From an uncultured Ruminococcus sp. (lineage in GTDB: Bacteria; Bacillota; Clostridia; Monoglobales; Monoglobaceae), in assembly GCA_902797885.1 (NCBI GenBank), contig CADBUP010000141.1, positions 1 to 49,098 on the forward strand: a stretch of DNA of 49,098 nucleotides, given 5' to 3'. Below the pieces are notes generated by a model. The model was not told the DNA's origin and searched no databases. It was given only the letters and a program-made list of their open reading frames with translations. Positions within the stretch are counted from its first letter, which is position 1; every line of letters begins with the position of its first letter. Shown piece by piece: positions 1-10,108 of the stretch. The translations under genes and the position numbers were made by a program.

Positions 1-1036
1 CCGAAAAACGGCATTTTATCTTGGGAAATATGATTTTTTCTTCGGCGGTAGCTTTCAAAAACATTTTTGTAATGTCATTAAACAGCGGATTTCCTTCTTT
101 ATCGCAACCGCCGATGACATATGTGTTTTCAAGTTCGTGGTCGGCATAGCCTATCATCTTTGAATCGTGATCATAATGACAGTCAAAAATGATTAAAAAC
201 TGCGAAATCAGTTCAAACGCCTCATCTTTTGTCATTCTGCCGGACTTTATATCCGCTTCATAAAAAGGTTGTAAATCCATATCGACACGACCGAATGAGT
301 TTGGTCCGATTCCCTCAAGAGAGCCTATAACCTTTCGCATAAAGGCATATGTATTTAACGCTTCGTAAAATGATTCGGGTTTTTCCCACGGGCATCGTCT
401 TGCCGAAATTGCAATTCTTTTCAAATTTGTATTATTCGGCTGTGTTTTTAATAATTCATCAGCCGTATCCGCAAACTTTTCACTTATTCTTTTTACGCAC
501 AAAAGTCCCTCGCATACCGCGGATAGGAATTGCTTTTCACCTCCATTGTCCGTACCGTTTAACGCTTCTTGCGCATCTTTATATACGCCTTTCAAACCTT
601 TTTCAAAAATAGGTCTGTAATTCACCAAGAAATGCTGTGCGTCATCATTATATGCGCCGCATATTAAATAAAACAGCTCGTTTCTCTGACGACAGCTAAG
701 CTCCCAAAGTTCAGGATCTTGTTCAATAAATTTATGAAAGTTTTTTCGATAAGTCCAACCACCGATATGTTTGTTCCCGTGATAATCTCTTGCACCGTCG
801 GAAAATCCCGGTATAATTCCCGTTTCATAATAAAACGGCGACTCTTTAAACAAAACAGGATTCATAATATCGGTAATAGTCTTATATTGCAAAACTTTCA
901 TATCGTATGCAGACATACTTTTGTCATACAATTCATCAAGCTTTTTTGTGCCGGCTTTCAGATACTTTTTTGCATTTTCATACGATGTTTTGCTGTAATA
1001 ATTTTTGATTTCATTACGTAATTCATTATATTTCAC
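1..1036 (-). CDS. Glycyl radical enzyme, PFL-like family (N-terminal part, cut by window edge)
   Basis: An open frame of about 345 codons runs off the left edge of the window. I chose the GTG start at 1034-1036 because GGAGG lies 9 nt upstream; a TTG two codons earlier is only 3 nt from it. The visible protein matches the N-terminal half of pyruvate-formate-lyase-like glycyl radical enzymes. It has the EGIGPNSFGRVDMDLQPFY stretch (family pattern G.GR.D..L.PFY), followed by YVIGGCDKEGNPLFND and a segment ending FPKIKCRF. The thiyl cysteine and the C-terminal glycyl loop lie outside the window, so activity and substrate class cannot be judged. It is divergent from an AraC-type regulator, its likely activator. 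It is clearly distinct in sequence from the second GRE at 4781-6913. Family assignment is strong; function is unknown. Confidence 0.85.
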   Translation of the reverse strand, partial: MKYNELRNEIKNYYSKTSYENAKKYLKAGTKKLDELYDKSMSAYDMKVLQYKTITDIMNPVLFKESPFYYETGIIPGFSDGARDYHGNKHIGGWTYRKNFHKFIEQDPELWELSCRQRNELFYLICGAYNDDAQHFLVNYRPIFEKGLKGVYKDAQEALNGTDNGGEKQFLSAVCEGLLCVKRISEKFADTADELLKTQPNNTNLKRIAISARRCPWEKPESFYEALNTYAFMRKVIGSLEGIGPNSFGRVDMDLQPFYEADIKSGRMTKDEAFELISQFLIIFDCHYDHDSKMIGYADHELENTYVIGGCDKEGNPLFNDITKMFLKATAEEKIIFPKIKCRFS

Positions 1037-1104: not shown

Positions 1105-1155
1105 TTGTAAAATAGAGAAATAAATATTTACAAGCTCGTCCAAATATGATATACT
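1105..1155 (+). promoter_or_regulatory. Promoter of AraC-type regulator, with 7-bp inverted repeat
   Basis: TTTACA (1127-1132), a 17-nt spacer and TATACT (1150-1155) form a good sigma-A-type promoter about 30 nt before the AraC start. An inverted repeat, TTGTAAA at 1105-1111 and TTTACAA at 1127-1133, overlaps the -35. It could be an autoregulatory operator, but 7-bp arms in AT-rich DNA are weak evidence. Confidence 0.5.
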
Positions 1156-1187
1156 TTATTTGCACAAAAACATATAAGGTGGTTTTT

Positions 1188-1937
1188 ATGGATTTTAGAA
1201 ATTTAAAAATAAAGGAAATAGAAAGCGTGATAAAATTTACCCCAGACAGGTCCGAATTTTCATCAAAAAACAAATCAACTCATATCATCGGCATTCAACT
1301 ATCCGGAAGTGCACTCCATATTTTCAAGGACAAACAGCTTGTTTTAAGCGAAAACAGTATATACTTTTTTAACCAAAAGGATGACTATGATGTAAAGGTC
1401 ATTGAAAAAGGAACGGCTTTCTCCGTTCATTTTTCAACATATGCGTCGATTTCTACCGATACATTTTTTCTAAAAATCGGCAGCCCCGGCGAAATTATAC
1501 GCCTTCTTGAAGTAATCGAGTCCGGCTTTATGTCTCAAAGCAATGAACTTATGCTTATGTCAAGATTTTATAAACTCTGTTCGCTCATAAACACCCTTTA
1601 TGAAAAGACCTTTATGCCCAAAGATAAACGGATTCTGAATGCTGGAGAATACATAAGTGCACACTTTAAAGATGCGGACTGTCTTGACGCTGCTGCAAAA
1701 AGCTGCGGTCTGTCACGGCGCCGGTTTAATGACCTGTTCAAAAACTGCTTTGACATAACGCCGAACAGGTATATAATAAATTTGAAAACAGACTATGCAA
1801 AAGGACTGCTCAAGTCAGGCTATATAAGCGTTTCTCAAACCGCCATGCTCTGCGGTTTTTCGGATATATATTATTTCAGCAAGGTATTTAAGACCGAAAC
1901 GGGTGTTTCTCCGAGAGAATACAAAAAGGATATGTAA
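1188..1937 (+). CDS. AraC-family transcriptional regulator
   Basis: A 249-residue protein if translation starts at 1188, where AAGGTGG sits 5 nt upstream. An upstream in-frame ATG at 1146 overlaps the -10 of the promoter and is rejected. Residues about 1-130 form an effector-binding or dimerisation region without a recognised motif. Residues about 150-247 are the double helix-turn-helix AraC domain, with LSRRRFNDLFKNCFDITPNRY in the first half and AMLCGFSDIYYFSKVFK plus GVSPREYKK in the second, the classic signature. It is divergent from the GRE gene at the left edge, so it probably activates that gene in response to the GRE's substrate. Family is certain; target is inferred. Confidence 0.92.
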   Translation: MDFRNLKIKEIESVIKFTPDRSEFSSKNKSTHIIGIQLSGSALHIFKDKQLVLSENSIYFFNQKDDYDVKVIEKGTAFSVHFSTYASISTDTFFLKIGSPGEIIRLLEVIESGFMSQSNELMLMSRFYKLCSLINTLYEKTFMPKDKRILNAGEYISAHFKDADCLDAAAKSCGLSRRRFNDLFKNCFDITPNRYIINLKTDYAKGLLKSGYISVSQTAMLCGFSDIYYFSKVFKTETGVSPREYKKDM

Positions 1938-1961
1938 AAGCAATTTTTCACATATCCTTTT
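1924..1961. terminator. Bidirectional intrinsic terminator
   Basis: AAAAGGATATGT (1924-1935) pairs perfectly with ACATATCCTTTT (1950-1961), a 12-bp stem with a 14-nt loop. A T-run follows in both directions. It overlaps the last codons of the AraC gene and separates it from the convergent GRE operon ending at 2013. Confidence 0.75.
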
Positions 1962-2012
1962 CTGCGTTTAAGTCTTATATGTAATTTATATTGAAATTAA
2001 CACCTCTGCGCC

Positions 2013-3107
2013 TTACTGCATATTATCAATAATACTCTGAACTATCTCGGTTACCTCTGTCCGTTTCTGCTGATACCTCTCATATCCCAAGACATGGGTT
2101 CCGAGGTACACGCTTAAATTTCGCGTTCTGTCGATGAAATAATGCGCGCCTGCGGCGCCGCCCCAGCCGAAATCCTCCCGCGTGCTTTCTTCCCACGGAC
2201 ACTGCTGACCGAGTCCGAAACCGCGTTTGTCCGTTACCCAGTATGTCGGCATTTCGATTTGTTCCTTTGTCAGACGGTTTGCGGATAGCATATCGACCGT
2301 TTCCTTTTTCAAGAGCTTGTATGTGCGGATTGCCTCCAAAAACTTTATATAATCGTCAACCGTTGATATGCAGCCTGCTCCGCCGCTTTCGTATTTTGTG
2401 CCGAATCTGAAGCAGTTTGTTTTTTCGCACTCGACCACCCTATCGCTTTCCGCGTCATAACGGTACTGATTTACAATTTTGTTCATATCGTCTGCCGAAA
2501 CCAAAAACTTTGAATTTTCCATTCCGCATACATCAAAGATATTCTTTTTCACATACTCACCGAATGTCATACCCGAAACCTCCTCAACAAGCGCCGCAAG
2601 AACATCGTGACAAAGGCTGTATTCCCAACGATATCCCGGCTCAAAAAGTAGCGGCTCATTTGCAAGATATTTCATAAGCTCTCTTGTCGGGCATTCGCCG
2701 TTCGTGTCCGACTGACACTTTTTTATTTCCGGAGAGTTCAAATCATAGCTGAATCCCGCTGTCATAGTAAAGAGATTTTCCACCGTAATTTTATTTTCCG
2801 CGGGTTTTACTCCCCCGTCAGTCAAAACATTCATATTTTTAAATTCAGGCATATATCCGTAAAGCTCATCGTCCAAGCGAATCAAGCCTTTTTCCCACAA
2901 CTGCAGAGCTGCCGTACAGGTAATCAGCTTTGAGCAGGAGTAGATGTTGTAAAGTTCCTTACCTGTTACGCCCACCTTGTTTTTAACATCCGTATATCCA
3001 TTGTTATGCCTGAAAACGCATTTTCCGTTGTGCATTACTATGCAGTCATAAAACGGAATCCCCATTTCCAAATAACTGTCTAATTTTTCTGTCAACTTTT
3101 CAAACAT
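2013..3107 (-). CDS. Serine hydrolase, beta-lactamase / family VIII esterase fold
   Basis: A 364-residue protein of the penicillin-binding/class C beta-lactamase superfamily. The SxxK nucleophile motif is S57-C-S-K60. The second motif is Y163-S-L followed by CHD, the variant seen in many esterase-type members rather than the Y-x-N of true beta-lactamases. FGWGGAAG (313-320) takes the place of the KTG/HTG motif. There is no signal peptide, so it should act in the cytoplasm, which argues against an antibiotic-resistance role. GGAGG lies 6 nt before the ATG. It is the last gene of the GRE operon, 81 nt behind the SDR. A small-molecule esterase or amidase acting in the same pathway is the likeliest role, but this is inference. 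Confidence 0.85.
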   Translation of the reverse strand: MFEKLTEKLDSYLEMGIPFYDCIVMHNGKCVFRHNNGYTDVKNKVGVTGKELYNIYSCSKLITCTAALQLWEKGLIRLDDELYGYMPEFKNMNVLTDGGVKPAENKITVENLFTMTAGFSYDLNSPEIKKCQSDTNGECPTRELMKYLANEPLLFEPGYRWEYSLCHDVLAALVEEVSGMTFGEYVKKNIFDVCGMENSKFLVSADDMNKIVNQYRYDAESDRVVECEKTNCFRFGTKYESGGAGCISTVDDYIKFLEAIRTYKLLKKETVDMLSANRLTKEQIEMPTYWVTDKRGFGLGQQCPWEESTREDFGWGGAAGAHYFIDRTRNLSVYLGTHVLGYERYQQKRTEVTEIVQSIIDNMQ

Positions 3108-3188
3108 ATGATTAACCTCCTTATTTTTTGCTCGACCGAAAGAGAATAATACGAATTTCGGTTTTGAAATACGAACTACTGCTTTCGC

Positions 3189-3947
3189 CTACAATGTTGC
3201 CGCTCTGTCGCCGCCGTCCGCAACAACCGTATGTCCGCAGATTATCTCTCCATAGTTACTCATAAGATATAGCGCAAGCTCCGCAATCTCGTCGGGACGT
3301 ATAAATCTGCCGATTGCGTGACGCTCGTACGGCTGGTCTATGGCATGAGCATAGTCCGCAATCATCGGCGTGAATGTCGCGCCCGGCGCAATTCCGTTTA
3401 TGATTATTCCGTCGCTTCCGAAACGTTTGCCGAACGCTCTTGTCCACTTTATCACCGCCTGCTTTGCCGCCCCGTATGAACCGGTAATATCCATACAAGC
3501 CGCATTTGACGCTATGTTGAGGATATTTCCGCGTATGCCGCGCGCCCTCATAAAGTCAACCTCGTTCCTCATCATAAAGAACGCCGCCTTAAAGTTCACA
3601 TCGGTCAGTGTGTCCCATTCCTCCTCGGTTATATCCCATGGCTCATATCCGCGCCCTGTCACAACAGCCGAGCCGAGAGCCGCGGCGTTTACAAAGCCGT
3701 TAAGTCCCCCTATAAGTTCCGCCGCCCTTTTAAAATTGCTTTCGCAAAGCGACAAATCGGATATATCCCACTGCATACATTCAAGCCGCGGCGAGGAAAT
3801 CTCTGCCGCCGCGCTCTCCAGCTTTTCCTTATTTCTTCCCACTATGACCACAGTCGCGCCCGCATCTGTAAAACGCTTTGCAATCGCCTTGCCTATTCCG
3901 CTGCCGCCGCCTGTTATCATGACTCTTGAACACCTTAACTCTAACAT
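3189..3947 (-). CDS. Short-chain dehydrogenase/reductase (SDR)
   Basis: A 252-residue classical SDR. The nucleotide-binding TGGGSGIG motif is at 12-19 and the NAA motif near 87-89. A catalytic-type Ser lies around 147, followed by Y158-G-A-A-K162 (YxxxK). A C-terminal VVADGGDRA stretch completes the fold. It should catalyse NAD(P)-dependent oxidation or reduction of an alcohol or ketone. It starts 24 nt after the radical-SAM activase with an AAAGGGGTG ribosome binding site, so it is in the GRE operon. The obvious idea is that it reduces or oxidises the carbonyl product or precursor of the GRE reaction, as dehydrogenases next to GRE diol dehydratases do. The substrate cannot be read from sequence. 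Confidence 0.9.
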   Translation of the reverse strand: MLELRCSRVMITGGGSGIGKAIAKRFTDAGATVVIVGRNKEKLESAAAEISSPRLECMQWDISDLSLCESNFKRAAELIGGLNGFVNAAALGSAVVTGRGYEPWDITEEEWDTLTDVNFKAAFFMMRNEVDFMRARGIRGNILNIASNAACMDITGSYGAAKQAVIKWTRAFGKRFGSDGIIINGIAPGATFTPMIADYAHAIDQPYERHAIGRFIRPDEIAELALYLMSNYGEIICGHTVVADGGDRAATL

Positions 3948-3971
3948 TCGTTACACCCCTTTTGCCGCCTG

Positions 3972-4766
3972 TCAAAACAGCTTTTTGTATTCTTTCATAT
4001 CCGCCTTGTCGGGAACGCTGAATTTTTCGCGCTCCATATTCAGCGCATCATACTTATGTTCACCGAGTGAGTGATACGGCAACAGCTCAACCTTGCTGAA
4101 CTCTATATCTTTTAAAAACTCCGCAATATCTTTCAACTCATCAATATTATTATTGTATCCGCCGATTACCGGTATTCGGATTATTATTTCCGCCCTGCCC
4201 GAAAGCCTTTTAAGATTTTCGAGTATAAGCGAATTTGAAACGCCCGTTCCCTCCTTGTGCAGCTTTTCCGAAAACGCTTTTACATCATACAAAAACAAAT
4301 CCGTATACGGCAGGATTTTCTCAAACTGCTCCCACGGAACATTCCCCGCCGTGTCAACCGCCGTATGTATTCCGCTTTCCTTACACTTTTTTAATACTTC
4401 ATAAAGAAAATCAATTTGCATCATACACTCTCCGCCGGAAAATGTAACACCGCCGCCCGAGTTTTCATAAAACGACCTGTCTTTCACAACCTCTGCAAAT
4501 ACTTCGTCAACCGTGTATTCCTTGCCGCAGATTTGCTTTGCATCATTGAAGCAGATAAAATCGGTGTCTGCCGCCGTAATGCCACGACATCTGCCGCAGC
4601 CCGTGCACTTGTCGGCATAAAACATTATCTGCGGCTTTAGTGACTGACTTTCAGGATTGTGACACCACTTGCATCTGAGGTTACACCCCTTAAAAAATAC
4701 CGTTGTTCTTATCCCCGGCCCATCAACAAATGAATTTCTTTGTATGTCAAATATTACTGCTTTCAT
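3972..4766 (-). CDS. Glycyl radical enzyme activating protein (radical SAM)
   Basis: A 264-residue radical-SAM activase. C28-x3-C32-x2-C35 (GCNLRCKWCHNPE) binds the SAM [4Fe-4S] cluster, and VTFSGGE (107-113) is the SAM-binding GGE motif. Between them is an insert with cysteines at 54, 57, 60, 72 and 80. Activases with a full ferredoxin domain carry two CxxCxxCxxxC sets (eight cysteines), while PFL activase has none, so this insert is reduced. The gene lies 14 nt downstream of the GRE at 4781-6913, with AGGTGGG before the ATG, and should install the radical on Gly686 of that enzyme. Role is near certain; auxiliary cluster content is open. Confidence 0.93.
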   Translation of the reverse strand: MKAVIFDIQRNSFVDGPGIRTTVFFKGCNLRCKWCHNPESQSLKPQIMFYADKCTGCGRCRGITAADTDFICFNDAKQICGKEYTVDEVFAEVVKDRSFYENSGGGVTFSGGECMMQIDFLYEVLKKCKESGIHTAVDTAGNVPWEQFEKILPYTDLFLYDVKAFSEKLHKEGTGVSNSLILENLKRLSGRAEIIIRIPVIGGYNNNIDELKDIAEFLKDIEFSKVELLPYHSLGEHKYDALNMEREKFSVPDKADMKEYKKLF

Positions 4767-4780
4767 AATTTAATCCCACC

Positions 4781-6913
4781 TTAGTTTGATTTTACCGTTC
4801 TTCTGATAATTTCATCTTGAACAGAGTCTGTCAGGTTAACAAAGAAATCTGAAAATCCAGAAACACGAACCCGCAGATTTTTGTAGTTTTCGGGCGCAAT
4901 CTTTGCTTTTCTTAAATCATCCTGCGACACATAATTCAACTGAAAATGTGAACCTCCGTTTTTAAAATACGTCTCCAATAATTTTGCGGTCTTGATAAAA
5001 TTATCCTTATTTAAAACAAGCTTTTCATCAAGATAAAGGTTTGTAACGCTCGGTCCGCCCGACAAAATACAATGCTTGTCGCATTTTGAAACCGCGTTGA
5101 GAAGAGCGGTAAGCCCCTCTCTGTCATATCCGCCGCTTTGCCCTATCCCGAACTTAAGCATTTCTCCGTCACGCCTTCCGTCAGGCGTTGCACGCGTACC
5201 CGAGCCGAAAATCTGATGATGCGGATTATATCCCTGAAGATTGCCGAACAGCAAATGATAACCGAGCTCGGTGGTTTTGTCTTTTGTATATTCGTAAAGC
5301 GTCTCGCAAAACAGCTTTGCAATATAGTTTGACGTCTCATCATCGTTTCCGAAGAACTTTCCTCTTCTTTTTATCAGTTCACGCAATTCTTCATATCCGC
5401 TCCAATTGTTTTTCAGCGCGTCAATCATTTCGCTCATAGTTATAATCTTTTCGTCATACACAAACTGTTTTATTATGCAAAGAGAATCTATGACATTTGT
5501 TATGCCAATAAGGTCTGCCCCCGAAACAACGTTTTTGCAGCTTCCTTTTGTGAATGTTTTTGCACTTTCGATGCAATCGGTAAACAGCAGCGATGTCACA
5601 TAGCTTGTATCTTTTGCTCTTATCCTCATAAATTCATTGTCATAACGAATCATTAAATCAACATCCTTAAAAAGCTCTGATTTATATATATCAAAGAATT
5701 TTCCCCATGTGTCCGCCGCCAAAAGCTCATCTTTACGGTTATACAGTGTATTTTCGATTGAACGCAGCATATTTGTATTCGTAGTGCCTGCAAAAAAGCC
5801 ACCGGGATATGTAAGTTCGTTGCAGCCGACTGAGGAATATCGGCACGCAACCTCATACGGAAAATGAGCAATGTGCGTTGCCGCATATATTTTTACCTCG
5901 TCACTCACAAAAGCAATTCTGTTGTTCTTATCATTAACCGACATATCAAGAACCTTTAAAAATGTTTCAAACGGCAATTTTTTTGTCCAGCGCAGCGAAA
6001 TCTGCGGAATGTATGTCGGAAGCTCGCACATTGCTTCCAATATCAGCATAGAAAAATCGTTAAATACATCCTCTCCGTTTTCATCATAACCGCCTACACA
6101 AAAATGCGACTCTCCCCCGCGCGTAAAGTTTGCTGACCCTTTTCTTGTGTTTGCCTGAAGCATCAGAAAAAGCTCTTGCAGAATTTCCTTCGCCTCTTCT
6201 TTTGTCAATATACCTTTTTTGACATCGTTCTTATAATAATCGTACAGTATTCTGTCAAGCGTGCCTAAGCCGTCAGGCTCATAGCTGAACAGGATATAGA
6301 TTGACAGTACTGCCTCATAAAAGCTGCCCGCGGGATATTGCGGTACCTTTTTTAAGGCTTCCGACAGTCTTAAAAGGTTTTTCTTATACTCGGCATTATT
6401 TAACCCCTGTGCAAATTCAAAAACCTCGGCAGAACATTTGTGTGCCCACTTAATAAGCGCGTCCGCAACCATTTTAAGCGAGTCCAAGAAGCTTATCTTT
6501 TCTGCGTCATCTTTATATTTTTGCTTTGATTTTTCTATATCCTCAATAAGTCCTTTTATACCCATACGAATAATTTTGCCAAAGTCCGCGGTTGCGTGCA
6601 GCCACTCGAAAGTTGAAAGATTATCTATAGGCTTATTATAAAAATATCTTAACGCCTCATCGGTGTTTTTAAGACTTCTTGCGTTCATAAACGGACCTGA
6701 TATTTCTTTTACATCAAGCTTCATATGCCCCGTCATTGTCTGATACTCGGTTATTACCGGTTTCTGAGCCATAATATAATCATAAATTCTTTTCGACTGC
6801 TTTTGGTGTTCGGGAAGGAACAAATCCATTCTGTCAAACTTCACACTTGTATAAGTGGGAAGCATTTTTCCTTCCAAGGTTAACTTTGATAATTCTGATA
6901 TTCTTTCGTTCAT
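4781..6913 (-). CDS. Glycyl radical enzyme (PFL/dehydratase family), substrate unknown
   Basis: A 710-residue GRE, complete but on the short side for the family. The thiyl radical site is in SSVGCNELTYPGG: Cys364 with Glu366 two residues on, the C-x-E arrangement of GRE dehydratases and decarboxylases. The glycyl loop near the C-terminus, VRVSGFSDFFVNL, places the radical on Gly686. The family stretch GLGTLDRILYDYY is near 215-227. The residues after Cys364 (N-E-L rather than the common V-E-P) and the short length do not match a subclass I can name with confidence. It heads an operon with its activase, an SDR and a serine hydrolase, and is divergent from an AraC regulator. AAGGAG precedes the ATG at a somewhat long 12-nt spacing. 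It must work anaerobically in the cytoplasm. Confidence 0.93.
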   Translation of the reverse strand: MNERISELSKLTLEGKMLPTYTSVKFDRMDLFLPEHQKQSKRIYDYIMAQKPVITEYQTMTGHMKLDVKEISGPFMNARSLKNTDEALRYFYNKPIDNLSTFEWLHATADFGKIIRMGIKGLIEDIEKSKQKYKDDAEKISFLDSLKMVADALIKWAHKCSAEVFEFAQGLNNAEYKKNLLRLSEALKKVPQYPAGSFYEAVLSIYILFSYEPDGLGTLDRILYDYYKNDVKKGILTKEEAKEILQELFLMLQANTRKGSANFTRGGESHFCVGGYDENGEDVFNDFSMLILEAMCELPTYIPQISLRWTKKLPFETFLKVLDMSVNDKNNRIAFVSDEVKIYAATHIAHFPYEVACRYSSVGCNELTYPGGFFAGTTNTNMLRSIENTLYNRKDELLAADTWGKFFDIYKSELFKDVDLMIRYDNEFMRIRAKDTSYVTSLLFTDCIESAKTFTKGSCKNVVSGADLIGITNVIDSLCIIKQFVYDEKIITMSEMIDALKNNWSGYEELRELIKRRGKFFGNDDETSNYIAKLFCETLYEYTKDKTTELGYHLLFGNLQGYNPHHQIFGSGTRATPDGRRDGEMLKFGIGQSGGYDREGLTALLNAVSKCDKHCILSGGPSVTNLYLDEKLVLNKDNFIKTAKLLETYFKNGGSHFQLNYVSQDDLRKAKIAPENYKNLRVRVSGFSDFFVNLTDSVQDEIIRRTVKSN

Positions 6914-7067: not shown

Positions 7068-7862
7068 ATGAATTTATTCGGATACGAACAAACGGAAATC
7101 AGTAAAATTTATACCGTTGACAAATACACAAACTATAATAAAAATATAAAAGAATATTCTAACTGCTTTCATACATACGAATTAATTTATTTTTTATCCG
7201 GAAGCAATAAAACACTCATAGACGGCGTAACACTTAACGATTGTCCCGATTCTTTGCGCTATATTCCAAAGACGCAGACAACGGGTGCATATCGGGTTGA
7301 GTCAATAGCCGCGCCGTCTGTCTGCATTGATATATATTTTGATGTTTCAACCCCTATGCCTATGCAGCCGCTTGTTCTTTTTGACTGCAATGAACTTCGT
7401 GACAAATTCATCAGGCTTTATTCGGTTTGGAAGCAAAAGGGTACGGGATATTATGCCGAAGCAATGAAACTCTTTTATGACATAATATGTTATATTCAGC
7501 GAACAGGATTAAAATATCTGCCGCCCGTGCAAAAAAGCTATATGGAAAGGGCGTATAGCTATATCCTGCGGCATTACCGCTGCAAACACTTTGACTATAA
7601 TGAGCTATGTAATTCAACGGGGCTGAAATATGCACATTTCAGCACGCTTTTTGTTAAAGCCTTCGGGATGTCTCCCGTCAGACTTGTAACAAAAATGAAA
7701 ATCGACTACGCAAAAGAACTGCTTGTTACAAATCATTTTTCTGTTTCGGAGATTGCCGAAATGTGCGGATTTGATAATCCATATTATTTTTCAAATGTAT
7801 TTAAAAAACAAACAGGCTTTTCGCCCACCAAATATCTATCGGAGATTTATGATATAACATAA
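7068..7862 (+). CDS. AraC-family transcriptional regulator with cupin-like N-terminus
   Basis: A 264-residue regulator. The N-terminal part contains NCFHTYELIYFLSG (about 32-45), the beginning of the cupin-type sugar-binding arm found in many AraC proteins. The C-terminal double helix-turn-helix spans about 160-258, with FSTLFVKAFGMSPVRL and EIAEMCGFDNPYYFSNVFKK followed by TGFSPTKYL. It is divergent from the four-gene GRE operon and is probably its substrate-responsive activator. Only the DNA-binding domain is alike between it and the AraC at 1188. AGTGGTG serves as ribosome binding site about 8 nt before the ATG. Confidence 0.92.
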   Translation: MNLFGYEQTEISKIYTVDKYTNYNKNIKEYSNCFHTYELIYFLSGSNKTLIDGVTLNDCPDSLRYIPKTQTTGAYRVESIAAPSVCIDIYFDVSTPMPMQPLVLFDCNELRDKFIRLYSVWKQKGTGYYAEAMKLFYDIICYIQRTGLKYLPPVQKSYMERAYSYILRHYRCKHFDYNELCNSTGLKYAHFSTLFVKAFGMSPVRLVTKMKIDYAKELLVTNHFSVSEIAEMCGFDNPYYFSNVFKKQTGFSPTKYLSEIYDIT

Positions 7863-7928: not shown

Positions 7929-7960
7929 ACCACATAAAAGGCATATGCCTTTTATGTGGT
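7929..7960 (-). terminator. Perfect 32-bp palindrome, terminator of the P1 operon
   Basis: Positions 7929-7944 (ACCACATAAAAGGCAT) are exactly complementary to 7945-7960. On the minus strand the hairpin is followed by AATTTTTAAATT, fitting an intrinsic terminator for the GH3 operon. On the plus side no T-run follows, so termination of the convergent AraC gene is less certain. Confidence 0.7.
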
Positions 7961-7993: not shown

Positions 7994-10108
7994 TCAATAC
8001 AAATGATTAACTCTTAAGGAAACATATTCATCGCACCACGCGTCTTTTCCTACATAGATTTTAAATTCACCCGGCTCAACAACAAATCTTCCGTTACTGT
8101 TATAGAACCCCAACTCCTCAAAGCCGATTTCAAATTCTGCTGTCTTGCTCTCACCCGCCTGAACGAACAGCTTGTCAAAGCCTTTTAATTCCTTTATCGG
8201 TCTTGTCATTGACGATTTGCAGTCACGAATATAGCATTGTGCCGTTTCTGCAGCATCAAAACTGCCCGTATTCCGAATTGTCACATTTACTTTAACTTTT
8301 TTACCATTATTAATATCATCAATTGATATGCTGCTTTCATCAATATTAATTTTTCCGTATTCAAATGTAGTATATGTAAGTCCATATCCAAACGGGTAAA
8401 GAGGCCTTCCTGTAACATCACAATAATTGTAAGCATCAGGATTATAGTATCCATCAACATCGCGTCCTGAAGGAGGGCAGTTATAGTAAATCGGAATCTG
8501 CCCGCTGTACTTCGGCAGAGTTACAGGCAAACGTCCGCTCGGTGACATTTCTCCGTAAAGGACATCAGCAATTGCATTTCCCGCCTGCGCCCCCGGATGC
8601 CACGCATATATAAGTGCATCAAAATAATCAACATTATTCTCAAGCGCAATCGGACGTCCGAAAAGCAAAACTCCGATTACAGGCTTTCCTGCTTCTTTTG
8701 CCCTGTCTATAACAAATTTCTGCGCCGAAGTAAGTTCTGTCTTCGCCATACTGTTAGCTTCTCCGGTAACAGTTTTTGCTTCGCCGAGAACTATCAATAC
8801 TTTATCGCATTGGTTCAAGTTACGCATAGTATCGTTCTCCGGAATATGACAATTATAGTGAATTATATTTTCACTTTTAGCTTCAAGACCTTCATAAACA
8901 GAAACACTTTCACTGTAATCGGCATCGGCAGCCCAACTTCCGATAATATTTTTTGTATCAAATGCCATACTTCCCATAACACATATTATTTCATCTTTTT
9001 TCAGCGGAAGAACATTGTTATCATTTTTGAGCAATACCAGCGATTCTGCCGCACACTTGCGTGCAACATCACGAATTTCTTGCTTAGGCAATTCTGTATA
9101 CTCAGCATAAGGGTTGTCAAACAGTCCGAGTTTATCCTTAATTTTCAGGACGCGTCTTACTGCTATGTCAATTATCTCCTCTGAAATTTTTCCGTTATGA
9201 ACTGCCTTTTCCAGATTATCAATATATAAGTTATCTATCATATCCATATCAAGACCTGCGCTCAAAGCCAAAATTGCCGCCTCCTCATCGGTTTCAGCAA
9301 CACCCTGACGAATCAGCTGCTTAACCGCCTCCCAGTCACTTATTACAAATCCGTCAAATCCAAGCTCACCTCTCAGCACATCTGTCAGCAGATACTTGCT
9401 TGAAGTAACAGGCTGACCGCTTATTTCGTTAAACGAACTCATCACGGTCATAACACCGCTATCGACCGCCGCCTTAAACGCTCTCAAATAATAATTTCTC
9501 AAAGAATAATCTGAGATTTCGGCTTTGTGGTAATCCCGTCCTCCCTCTGATGCACCGTAACCAATATAATGCTTTGCGCACGCCGCAATATTTGTATTAT
9601 CTTCCCCTTGAAAGCCTTTGACTATTGCTTCTGCCATTTTGCATCCGAGATATGGGTCCTCTCCCGTGCTTTCCACTATTCGTCCCCATCTCGGGTCTCT
9701 TGAAATGTCAAGCATAGGTGCAAAGGTCCAGCGTATTCCATCATTTTTTGCTTCCATAGCAACATATTCATAACCCTTTTTTACAAGCTTCGGGTTAAAT
9801 GTTGCAGCCAGCGCAAGAGGAATCGGCAAATTTATTTTGTGACCGTGTATAACATCGTGACCGTAAATAATGGGTATTCCGTGTTTTTCAACGGCTATTT
9901 TTTGTATTTCATTCAGTTTTTCCAATTCAACAGAATTAAAATCTCCGTTTCCTGTTGTTGAAAAGGCGGCCAAAATCAGTGACCCGTAACAGTCTTTTTC
10001 AATCAACTCTTTCATTTCGTCAACGTTGCTTTCGGATAACATAATCTGACTTAATTGCAGTAATTTTTCACGCAATGTCATTTTTTCTATTATTTTTTCT
10101 ATATTCAT
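7994..10108 (-). CDS. bglX: GH3 beta-glucosidase/beta-xylosidase-type glycoside hydrolase
   Basis: A 704-residue GH3 enzyme starting at ATG 10108, where GGAG lies 6 nt upstream. A longer reading from TTG 10120 would bury that site. The catalytic nucleophile is D258 in GFVISDWEAV. Earlier family blocks include GIPIIYGHDVIHG (77-89), the DISRDPRWGR substrate loop (134-143) and AKHYIGYG (178-185). The C-terminal 100 residues form the fibronectin-III-like domain typical of the BglX architecture. There is no signal peptide, so it acts on imported oligosaccharides, releasing terminal beta-linked glucose or xylose (specificity unresolved). It is the last gene of the P1 operon. The symbol reflects architecture, not proven orthology. 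Confidence 0.9.
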   Translation of the reverse strand: MNIEKIIEKMTLREKLLQLSQIMLSESNVDEMKELIEKDCYGSLILAAFSTTGNGDFNSVELEKLNEIQKIAVEKHGIPIIYGHDVIHGHKINLPIPLALAATFNPKLVKKGYEYVAMEAKNDGIRWTFAPMLDISRDPRWGRIVESTGEDPYLGCKMAEAIVKGFQGEDNTNIAACAKHYIGYGASEGGRDYHKAEISDYSLRNYYLRAFKAAVDSGVMTVMSSFNEISGQPVTSSKYLLTDVLRGELGFDGFVISDWEAVKQLIRQGVAETDEEAAILALSAGLDMDMIDNLYIDNLEKAVHNGKISEEIIDIAVRRVLKIKDKLGLFDNPYAEYTELPKQEIRDVARKCAAESLVLLKNDNNVLPLKKDEIICVMGSMAFDTKNIIGSWAADADYSESVSVYEGLEAKSENIIHYNCHIPENDTMRNLNQCDKVLIVLGEAKTVTGEANSMAKTELTSAQKFVIDRAKEAGKPVIGVLLFGRPIALENNVDYFDALIYAWHPGAQAGNAIADVLYGEMSPSGRLPVTLPKYSGQIPIYYNCPPSGRDVDGYYNPDAYNYCDVTGRPLYPFGYGLTYTTFEYGKINIDESSISIDDINNGKKVKVNVTIRNTGSFDAAETAQCYIRDCKSSMTRPIKELKGFDKLFVQAGESKTAEFEIGFEELGFYNSNGRFVVEPGEFKIYVGKDAWCDEYVSLRVNHLY

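Follow-up and report, generated by a model that had tools for sequence, protein, structure and literature searches.

Positions 2,013–6,913 of the window, the 49,098-nucleotide contig of an uncultured Ruminococcus sp., constitute a real operon for a glycyl radical enzyme (GRE), an oxygen-sensitive radical enzyme, in an uncultured gut bacterium. Sequence comparison places this GRE in a distinct family that contains no enzyme of known substrate and that stands apart from all characterised GREs sampled; the family would therefore mark chemistry still undiscovered rather than a known pathway. GREs catalyse some of the hardest bond cleavages of anaerobic gut metabolism, and newly assigned GRE classes (CutC, HypD, IslA and YbiW/PflD) each exposed a formerly hidden pathway. 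The family described here is well bounded, with a fixed catalytic motif, a short-chain dehydrogenase/reductase (SDR) partner and a dedicated regulator, and it occurs in many uncultured Clostridia and other phyla from herbivore guts.

Organisation of the operon

The window corresponds to contig C141 of a 2.58 Mb assembly in 204 contigs. Four genes lie head to tail on its minus strand, separated by intergenic gaps of approximately 14, 24 and 81 bp in the ORF list, and an AraC-family regulator gene, located outside 2,013–6,913, starts 154 bp upstream of the GRE gene (Table 1). All reading frames are intact and the operon spacing is tight. The gene set of GRE, activase, SDR and hydrolase proposed in the sequence-only reading is borne out by both ORFs and Pfam. 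The GRE contains PFL-like (1.2e-81; 275.7 bits against a cut-off of 24.3) and Gly_radical (5e-19; 69.2 bits against 22.2) domains, and the other genes match Radical_SAM (1.4e-18), adh_short_C2 (5.8e-44), Beta-lactamase (5.4e-51) and HTH_18 (4.6e-18). Membership of the GRE superfamily follows from domain scores above cut-off, the RVxG[FWY] motif with a mid-protein cysteine, an adjacent activase and the predicted fold. The two hairpins at 1,923–1,962 and 7,929–7,960 likely bound a cassette of AraC gene and operon, as pattern matches rather than proof of termination.

Table 1. Features of the GRE operon and its surroundings. Positions are those of the window unless a locus is named.
Feature	Position	Strand	Basis or remark
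GRE2, 5′ part, GCWG motif	1..1033	−	Remainder on contig C100 (L008:1-1215, +)
AraC-family regulator of adjoining GRE2 unit	1146..1937	+	ORF + Pfam
Hairpin, 17 pairs	1923..1962		Lies where the hydrolase gene and the neighbouring AraC gene converge; likely terminator
Serine hydrolase, beta-lactamase fold, 364 aa	2013..3107	−	ORF + Pfam
SDR, 252 aa	3189..3947	−	ORF + Pfam
Radical-SAM GRE activase, 264 aa	3972..4766	−	ORF + Pfam
GRE, 710 aa	4781..6913	−	ORF + Pfam; His106, Cys364-Asn365-Glu366, Gly686 in RVSGF
AraC-family regulator, divergent from GRE	7068..7862	+	ORF + Pfam
Hairpin, 14 pairs, 3′ of AraC gene	7929..7960		Likely terminator
BD-FAE esterase, Sapep/PepV-type dipeptidase, then GRE3	L008:2330-6100	+	GRE3 reads GCNEW; sister to focal family

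The GRE falls outside the characterised classes

The focal GRE scored far under the cut-off of every NCBIfam GRE equivalog. Its score for the general PFL2-3 family was 285 bits (cut-off 678); it also reached 267 and 221 bits against 1000 for the (2S)-3-sulfopropanediol dehydratases HpsG and HpfG, 242 bits against 1100 for HypD (NF043068) and 206 bits against 1050 for CutC (TIGR04394). The arylacetate decarboxylases for indoleacetate and 4-hydroxyphenylacetate gave 203 and 159 bits against cut-offs of 1100 and 1150, respectively. The top phmmer matches among PDB sequences were 8id1 (234 bits), 1r8w (210 bits), 6lon (209 bits) and 5i2a (206 bits); these scores single out no class. In the fold search, 8id1 is named as an N-methyl-cis-4-hydroxy-L-proline dehydratase. 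Isethionate sulfite-lyase and the X-succinate synthases, which are absent from the tree described below, had only PDB scores lower than those of 8id1 and 1r8w.

A maximum-likelihood tree (LG+C20 PMSF) was built from 50 rows, of which seven reference rows are partial PDB sequences taken from alignments; the tree leaves out IslA, the decarboxylases and the X-succinate synthases, and its deep branches are weakly resolved. In it, the focal GRE groups with 16 relatives in a single clade (99/95), which GRE3, encoded on a second contig of the same genome, joins at 100/98. This clade is separate from glycerol/propanediol dehydratase, CutC, HypD, HpsG, YbiW, PflD, 8id1, AfPFL2 and pyruvate formate-lyase (PFL). 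The sequence-only reading had proposed that the GRE fits no characterised class; the NCBIfam cut-offs and the tree agree with it, and clustering with a characterised class, which would have spoken against that proposal, was not found among the 50 rows.

The AF2 model of the GRE (pLDDT 92, pTM 0.92) has the GRE fold. Its best PDB matches are 1r8w, 2f3o (glycerol dehydratase) and 5i2g (propanediol dehydratase), with TMq values of 0.83–0.84 at 23–25% identity. The model also matches 6vxc (TMq 0.83–0.84) and the solved structures of YbiW and PflD (TMq 0.83). Identity as B12-independent glycerol/propanediol dehydratase, HypD, CutC, HpsG, YbiW/PflD, 8id1 or PFL is rejected on the cut-offs, the tree and the active-site alignment.

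Each of the closest known systems shares part of the focal architecture. The trans-4-hydroxy-L-proline dehydratase HypD (6vxc) and the anhydrohexitol-6-phosphate lyases YbiW/PflD (8id7, 8id0) have the same His/Cys/Glu/Gly set, the latter pair also the fold, yet both fall in separate clades; in Escherichia coli, ybiW and pflD adjoin aldolase or PTS genes, whereas the focal operon lacks such a partner. The choline TMA-lyase CutC shares the fold, Cys, Glu and radical Gly, but has Asp at the His106 column and lies in a separate clade. Although 8id1 is the best PDB match by phmmer, it groups with CutC, and its close relatives have Glu at the His106 column. PFL is set apart by an adjacent Cys-Cys pair (CCV) where the focal GRE has GCN. 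Aminoacyl radical enzymes are unusual GRE homologues, mostly from uncultured gut bacteria and with substrates not known, in which Ala, Ser or Thr replaces the radical Gly (PMC11528403); the focal family, in contrast, retains the radical Gly in all 45 aligned sequences. The family is not described in the literature covered on anhydroglucitol GREs, on GREs with beta-lactamase and polysaccharide utilisation genes and on rumen GREs, which included few subscription papers.

Active site of the family

Residues His106, Asp214, Cys364, Asn365 and Gly686 are invariant in the 45 aligned family sequences, and the alignment confirms the positions given earlier for Cys364, Glu366 and Gly686. Glu366 is present in 40 of the 45, with Met in four and Ala in one, so the Glu base is not essential across the family. 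A hallmark of the family is GCN at the thiyl cysteine, which reads GCNEL in the focal GRE. The short length noted before is also a family trait, at approximately 710 aa throughout.

His106 aligns to His164 of glycerol dehydratase and to the corresponding His of HypD, PflD and YbiW; we take the roles of residues at these aligned positions to be established knowledge for the four enzymes. The pocket loops differ from those of glycerol dehydratase: the H281/S282 loop is several residues shorter in the family, Asp447 has no equivalent, its place being taken mostly by Gly or Ser, and two residues are gained ahead of the HH-x-x-FG stretch. As judged from the alignment, the residue set fits a dehydratase or lyase acting by elimination, and the pocket loops fit none that is characterised. 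Another reaction type therefore remains conceivable, given the shorter H281/S282 loop and the lack of Asp447.

These features bear on whether the GRE is simply an ordinary propanediol/glycerol dehydratase whose sequence has drifted. Such an origin would explain the top structural matches to 1r8w and 5i2g, the shared fold and the conserved His, Cys, base Glu and radical Gly. It is nevertheless very unlikely, as the focal GRE is approximately 80 residues shorter, reads GCN rather than GCV, has the altered loop and no Asp447, and does not group with 1r8w and 5i2a in the tree; furthermore, glycerol dehydratase-like GREs with the motif GCVEPQ co-exist in genomes that hold the family.

The catalytic Glu, two residues after the Cys, is replaced by Met, Ala or Leu in the family members at L094:8001-10127, L096:3630-5759, L101:8001-10130, L106:8001-10127, L109:8001-10127 and L033:1286-3424.

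Operon partners

Seventy-nine family operons, some cut by contig ends, were compared. An activase is encoded in 44 of them and an SDR in 14; eight have a dipeptidase, five a PTE-family hydrolase, five a PGA_cap hydrolase and three the beta-lactamase-fold hydrolase. Of the 63 loci whose upstream sequence is long enough, 48 have a divergent AraC gene, which the sequence-only reading had recognised as the operon's own regulator. The conserved core is AraC, GRE and activase.

The radical-SAM cysteines are intact in all 41 aligned family activases. In the focal activase, C28, C32 and C35 form the CX3CX2C motif, and C54, C57, C60 and C72 remain for one auxiliary cluster. Its ferredoxin-like insert is shortened to four cysteines; 28 of the 41 family activases carry cysteines for two auxiliary clusters. 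The best NCBIfam score of the focal activase was to the HypD activase, at 326 bits against a cut-off of 425.

The focal SDR is 70–73% identical to the SDRs of three other GRE operons (L083, L107 and L114), and SDR identity among these four exceeds the identity among their GREs. Because those three operons were found via the GRE, a search with the SDR itself is the unbiased test. With the SDR as query against 381 genomes of the class, the sole other close match (73%) sits in a GRE operon. Specific coupling of the SDR to the GRE thus appears well supported by these comparisons, although it is not heavily sampled, since there is only one independent case. Subclades differ in gene order, some having the SDR gene upstream of the GRE and others having it downstream. 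The 65 of 79 operons that lack an SDR, some of them truncated by contig ends, count against the function proposed below.

The hydrolase behaves differently. Its nearest solved structures are carboxylesterases, making it esterase-like rather than beta-lactamase-like. Relatives at 40–58% identity occur in 26 other genomes, and the 17 neighbourhoods read around an identified hydrolase (38–57% identity) have no GRE nearby. An obligatory partnership between hydrolase and GRE is ruled out by these GRE-free neighbourhoods. A linear route from hydrolase to GRE to dehydrogenase had been suggested; co-occurrence upholds its SDR part, whereas the 'hydrolase first' part, with hydrolases in three of 79 operons and 17 GRE-free contexts, is weakly supported.

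Other family operons carry alternative hydrolases (M20 dipeptidase, PTE-family or PGA_cap), and many carry none. The GRE could instead be a C–N or C–O lyase for an amino-acid-like or acyl-amine substrate, similar to HypD, HplG or N-methyl-hydroxyproline dehydratase, with an M20, PTE or beta-lactamase-fold hydrolase cleaving an amide, ester or lactone to set that substrate free. Sapep/PepV-type dipeptidases and PTE-family hydrolases in several operons would suit this alternative, as would the dipeptidase of the same type beside GRE3 in the focal genome and the top phmmer match to 8id1. We consider it unlikely: the lead of 8id1 is small (234 versus 210 bits), the tree places 8id1 with CutC, and most operons are without M20, PTE or beta-lactamase-fold hydrolases.

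Proposed function

Our preferred reading, held with slightly better than even confidence, is that the operon is a regulated anaerobic catabolic module in which a dehydratase- or lyase-type GRE makes a carbonyl compound that the SDR reduces. AraC would switch the module on with an inducer, and the activase would install the radical on Gly686. By homology, the radical would pass from Gly686 to Cys364, whose thiyl radical may then take a hydrogen from a hydroxylated substrate carbon. Glu366 would serve as the base that accepts the hydroxyl proton, and His106, at the position of glycerol dehydratase His164, could assist a neighbouring leaving group, most likely water. The GRE would thereby act as a dehydratase or lyase and release a carbonyl compound. 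The specific co-occurrence of the SDR suggests that it reduces or, less likely, oxidises the GRE product with NAD(P)(H). The esterase-like hydrolase would be an accessory that the module can do without, perhaps removing acyl groups from the substrate.

The window at 7,994–45,918 is a probable polysaccharide-use region, with a GH3-like gene, three SGNH-like hydrolases, sugar ABC transporter-like genes, other glycosidase-like genes and large secreted proteins, all assigned from translations alone. These carbohydrate-like surroundings suggest a small plant-derived polyhydroxy compound as substrate, which is only a working guess because many relatives adjoin unrelated genes.

The same glycosidase-, SGNH- and transporter-like genes would also suit a ring-opening C–O lyase that acts on a cyclic ether or anhydrosugar and feeds sugar breakdown. 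The models for such a reaction are YbiW and PflD, the enzymes for 1,5-anhydroglucitol-6-phosphate and 1,5-anhydromannitol-6-phosphate, with which the focal GRE has its His, Cys and Glu residues and its fold in common. It lies outside the YbiW/PflD clade, however, and neither the focal operon nor the recurrent partners in family operons were seen to include an aldolase, kinase or PTS gene; together with the unrelated genes beside many relatives, this makes a ring-opening lyase improbable.

With regard to the family as a whole, it is possible, at somewhat less than an even chance, that the GCN proteins constitute a GRE class of new function, whose substrate and perhaps bond cleavage are new to GREs, serving plant-compound degradation in many uncultured herbivore-gut bacteria; the same tentative proposal assigns a different radical reaction to the GCNM/GCNL/GCNA subclade, which lacks the Glu base. 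The regulator and the SDR offer direct handles for finding the GRE substrate.

Neighbouring GRE units

GRE2, which the sequence-only reading did not mention, starts at position 1,033, runs off the edge of the window and continues on contig C100. The ends of C141 and C100 share 16 bases in frame, and a relative at L070:1615-3849 matches both halves of GRE2 unbroken, at 86 and 88% identity. Beyond GRE2, C100 encodes an AraC regulator, a BD-FAE-family alpha/beta hydrolase, a dipeptidase of the Sapep/PepV type and GRE3. The junction therefore yields a series of three consecutive GRE units, in each of which a divergent AraC gene is present. GRE2 reads GCWG, with no Glu after the Cys, and no adjacent activase was seen on the C141 and C100 sequence examined. 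In two further genomes, L070 and L108, a GRE2 relative and a focal-family GRE are encoded on one contig. While GRE2 is 86–88% identical to the L070 copy, the focal-type GREs of the two genomes are only approximately 50% identical.

Distribution of the family

The family is sporadic: 36 other genomes from the same genus and family were searched, and none gave a match at E ≤ 1e-60. This scatter could be read as a sign of lost function, but a catalytically dead operon is scarcely credible given its intact frames, tight spacing and retained catalytic residues. Nine genomes other than the focal one, out of 391 sampled from the class, have members at 43–53% identity, some in two copies, and one further relative was found at 30% identity. 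One genome from another family of the class gave a 30% identity match.

A pattern scan of approximately 85,000 species genomes returned 87 relatives, a minimum figure given that the scan relied on just two peptide patterns; the 80 kept are from MAGs or uncultured assemblies. Their hosts are mostly Clostridia and Oscillospiraceae from the hindgut of sheep, goat, deer, buffalo and yak, and further hosts belong to Kiritimatiellae, Verrucomicrobia, Lentisphaerae/Victivallales and Abditibacteriota. The viral contigs searched held no relatives.

Seven genomes with the family have 5–12 PFL-family matches each, many in further uncharacterised clades. In genome G100, a single stretch of contig C24 at about 25–71 kb (L034 in part) contains seven PFL-family matches. 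Genomes like G100 have up to 12, several in uncharacterised clades (GCYE..., RVCGW). A GRE-like protein at L208 (G126:C50:2790-4586) has RIHGT in place of RVxG[FWY] at the aligned radical-site region.
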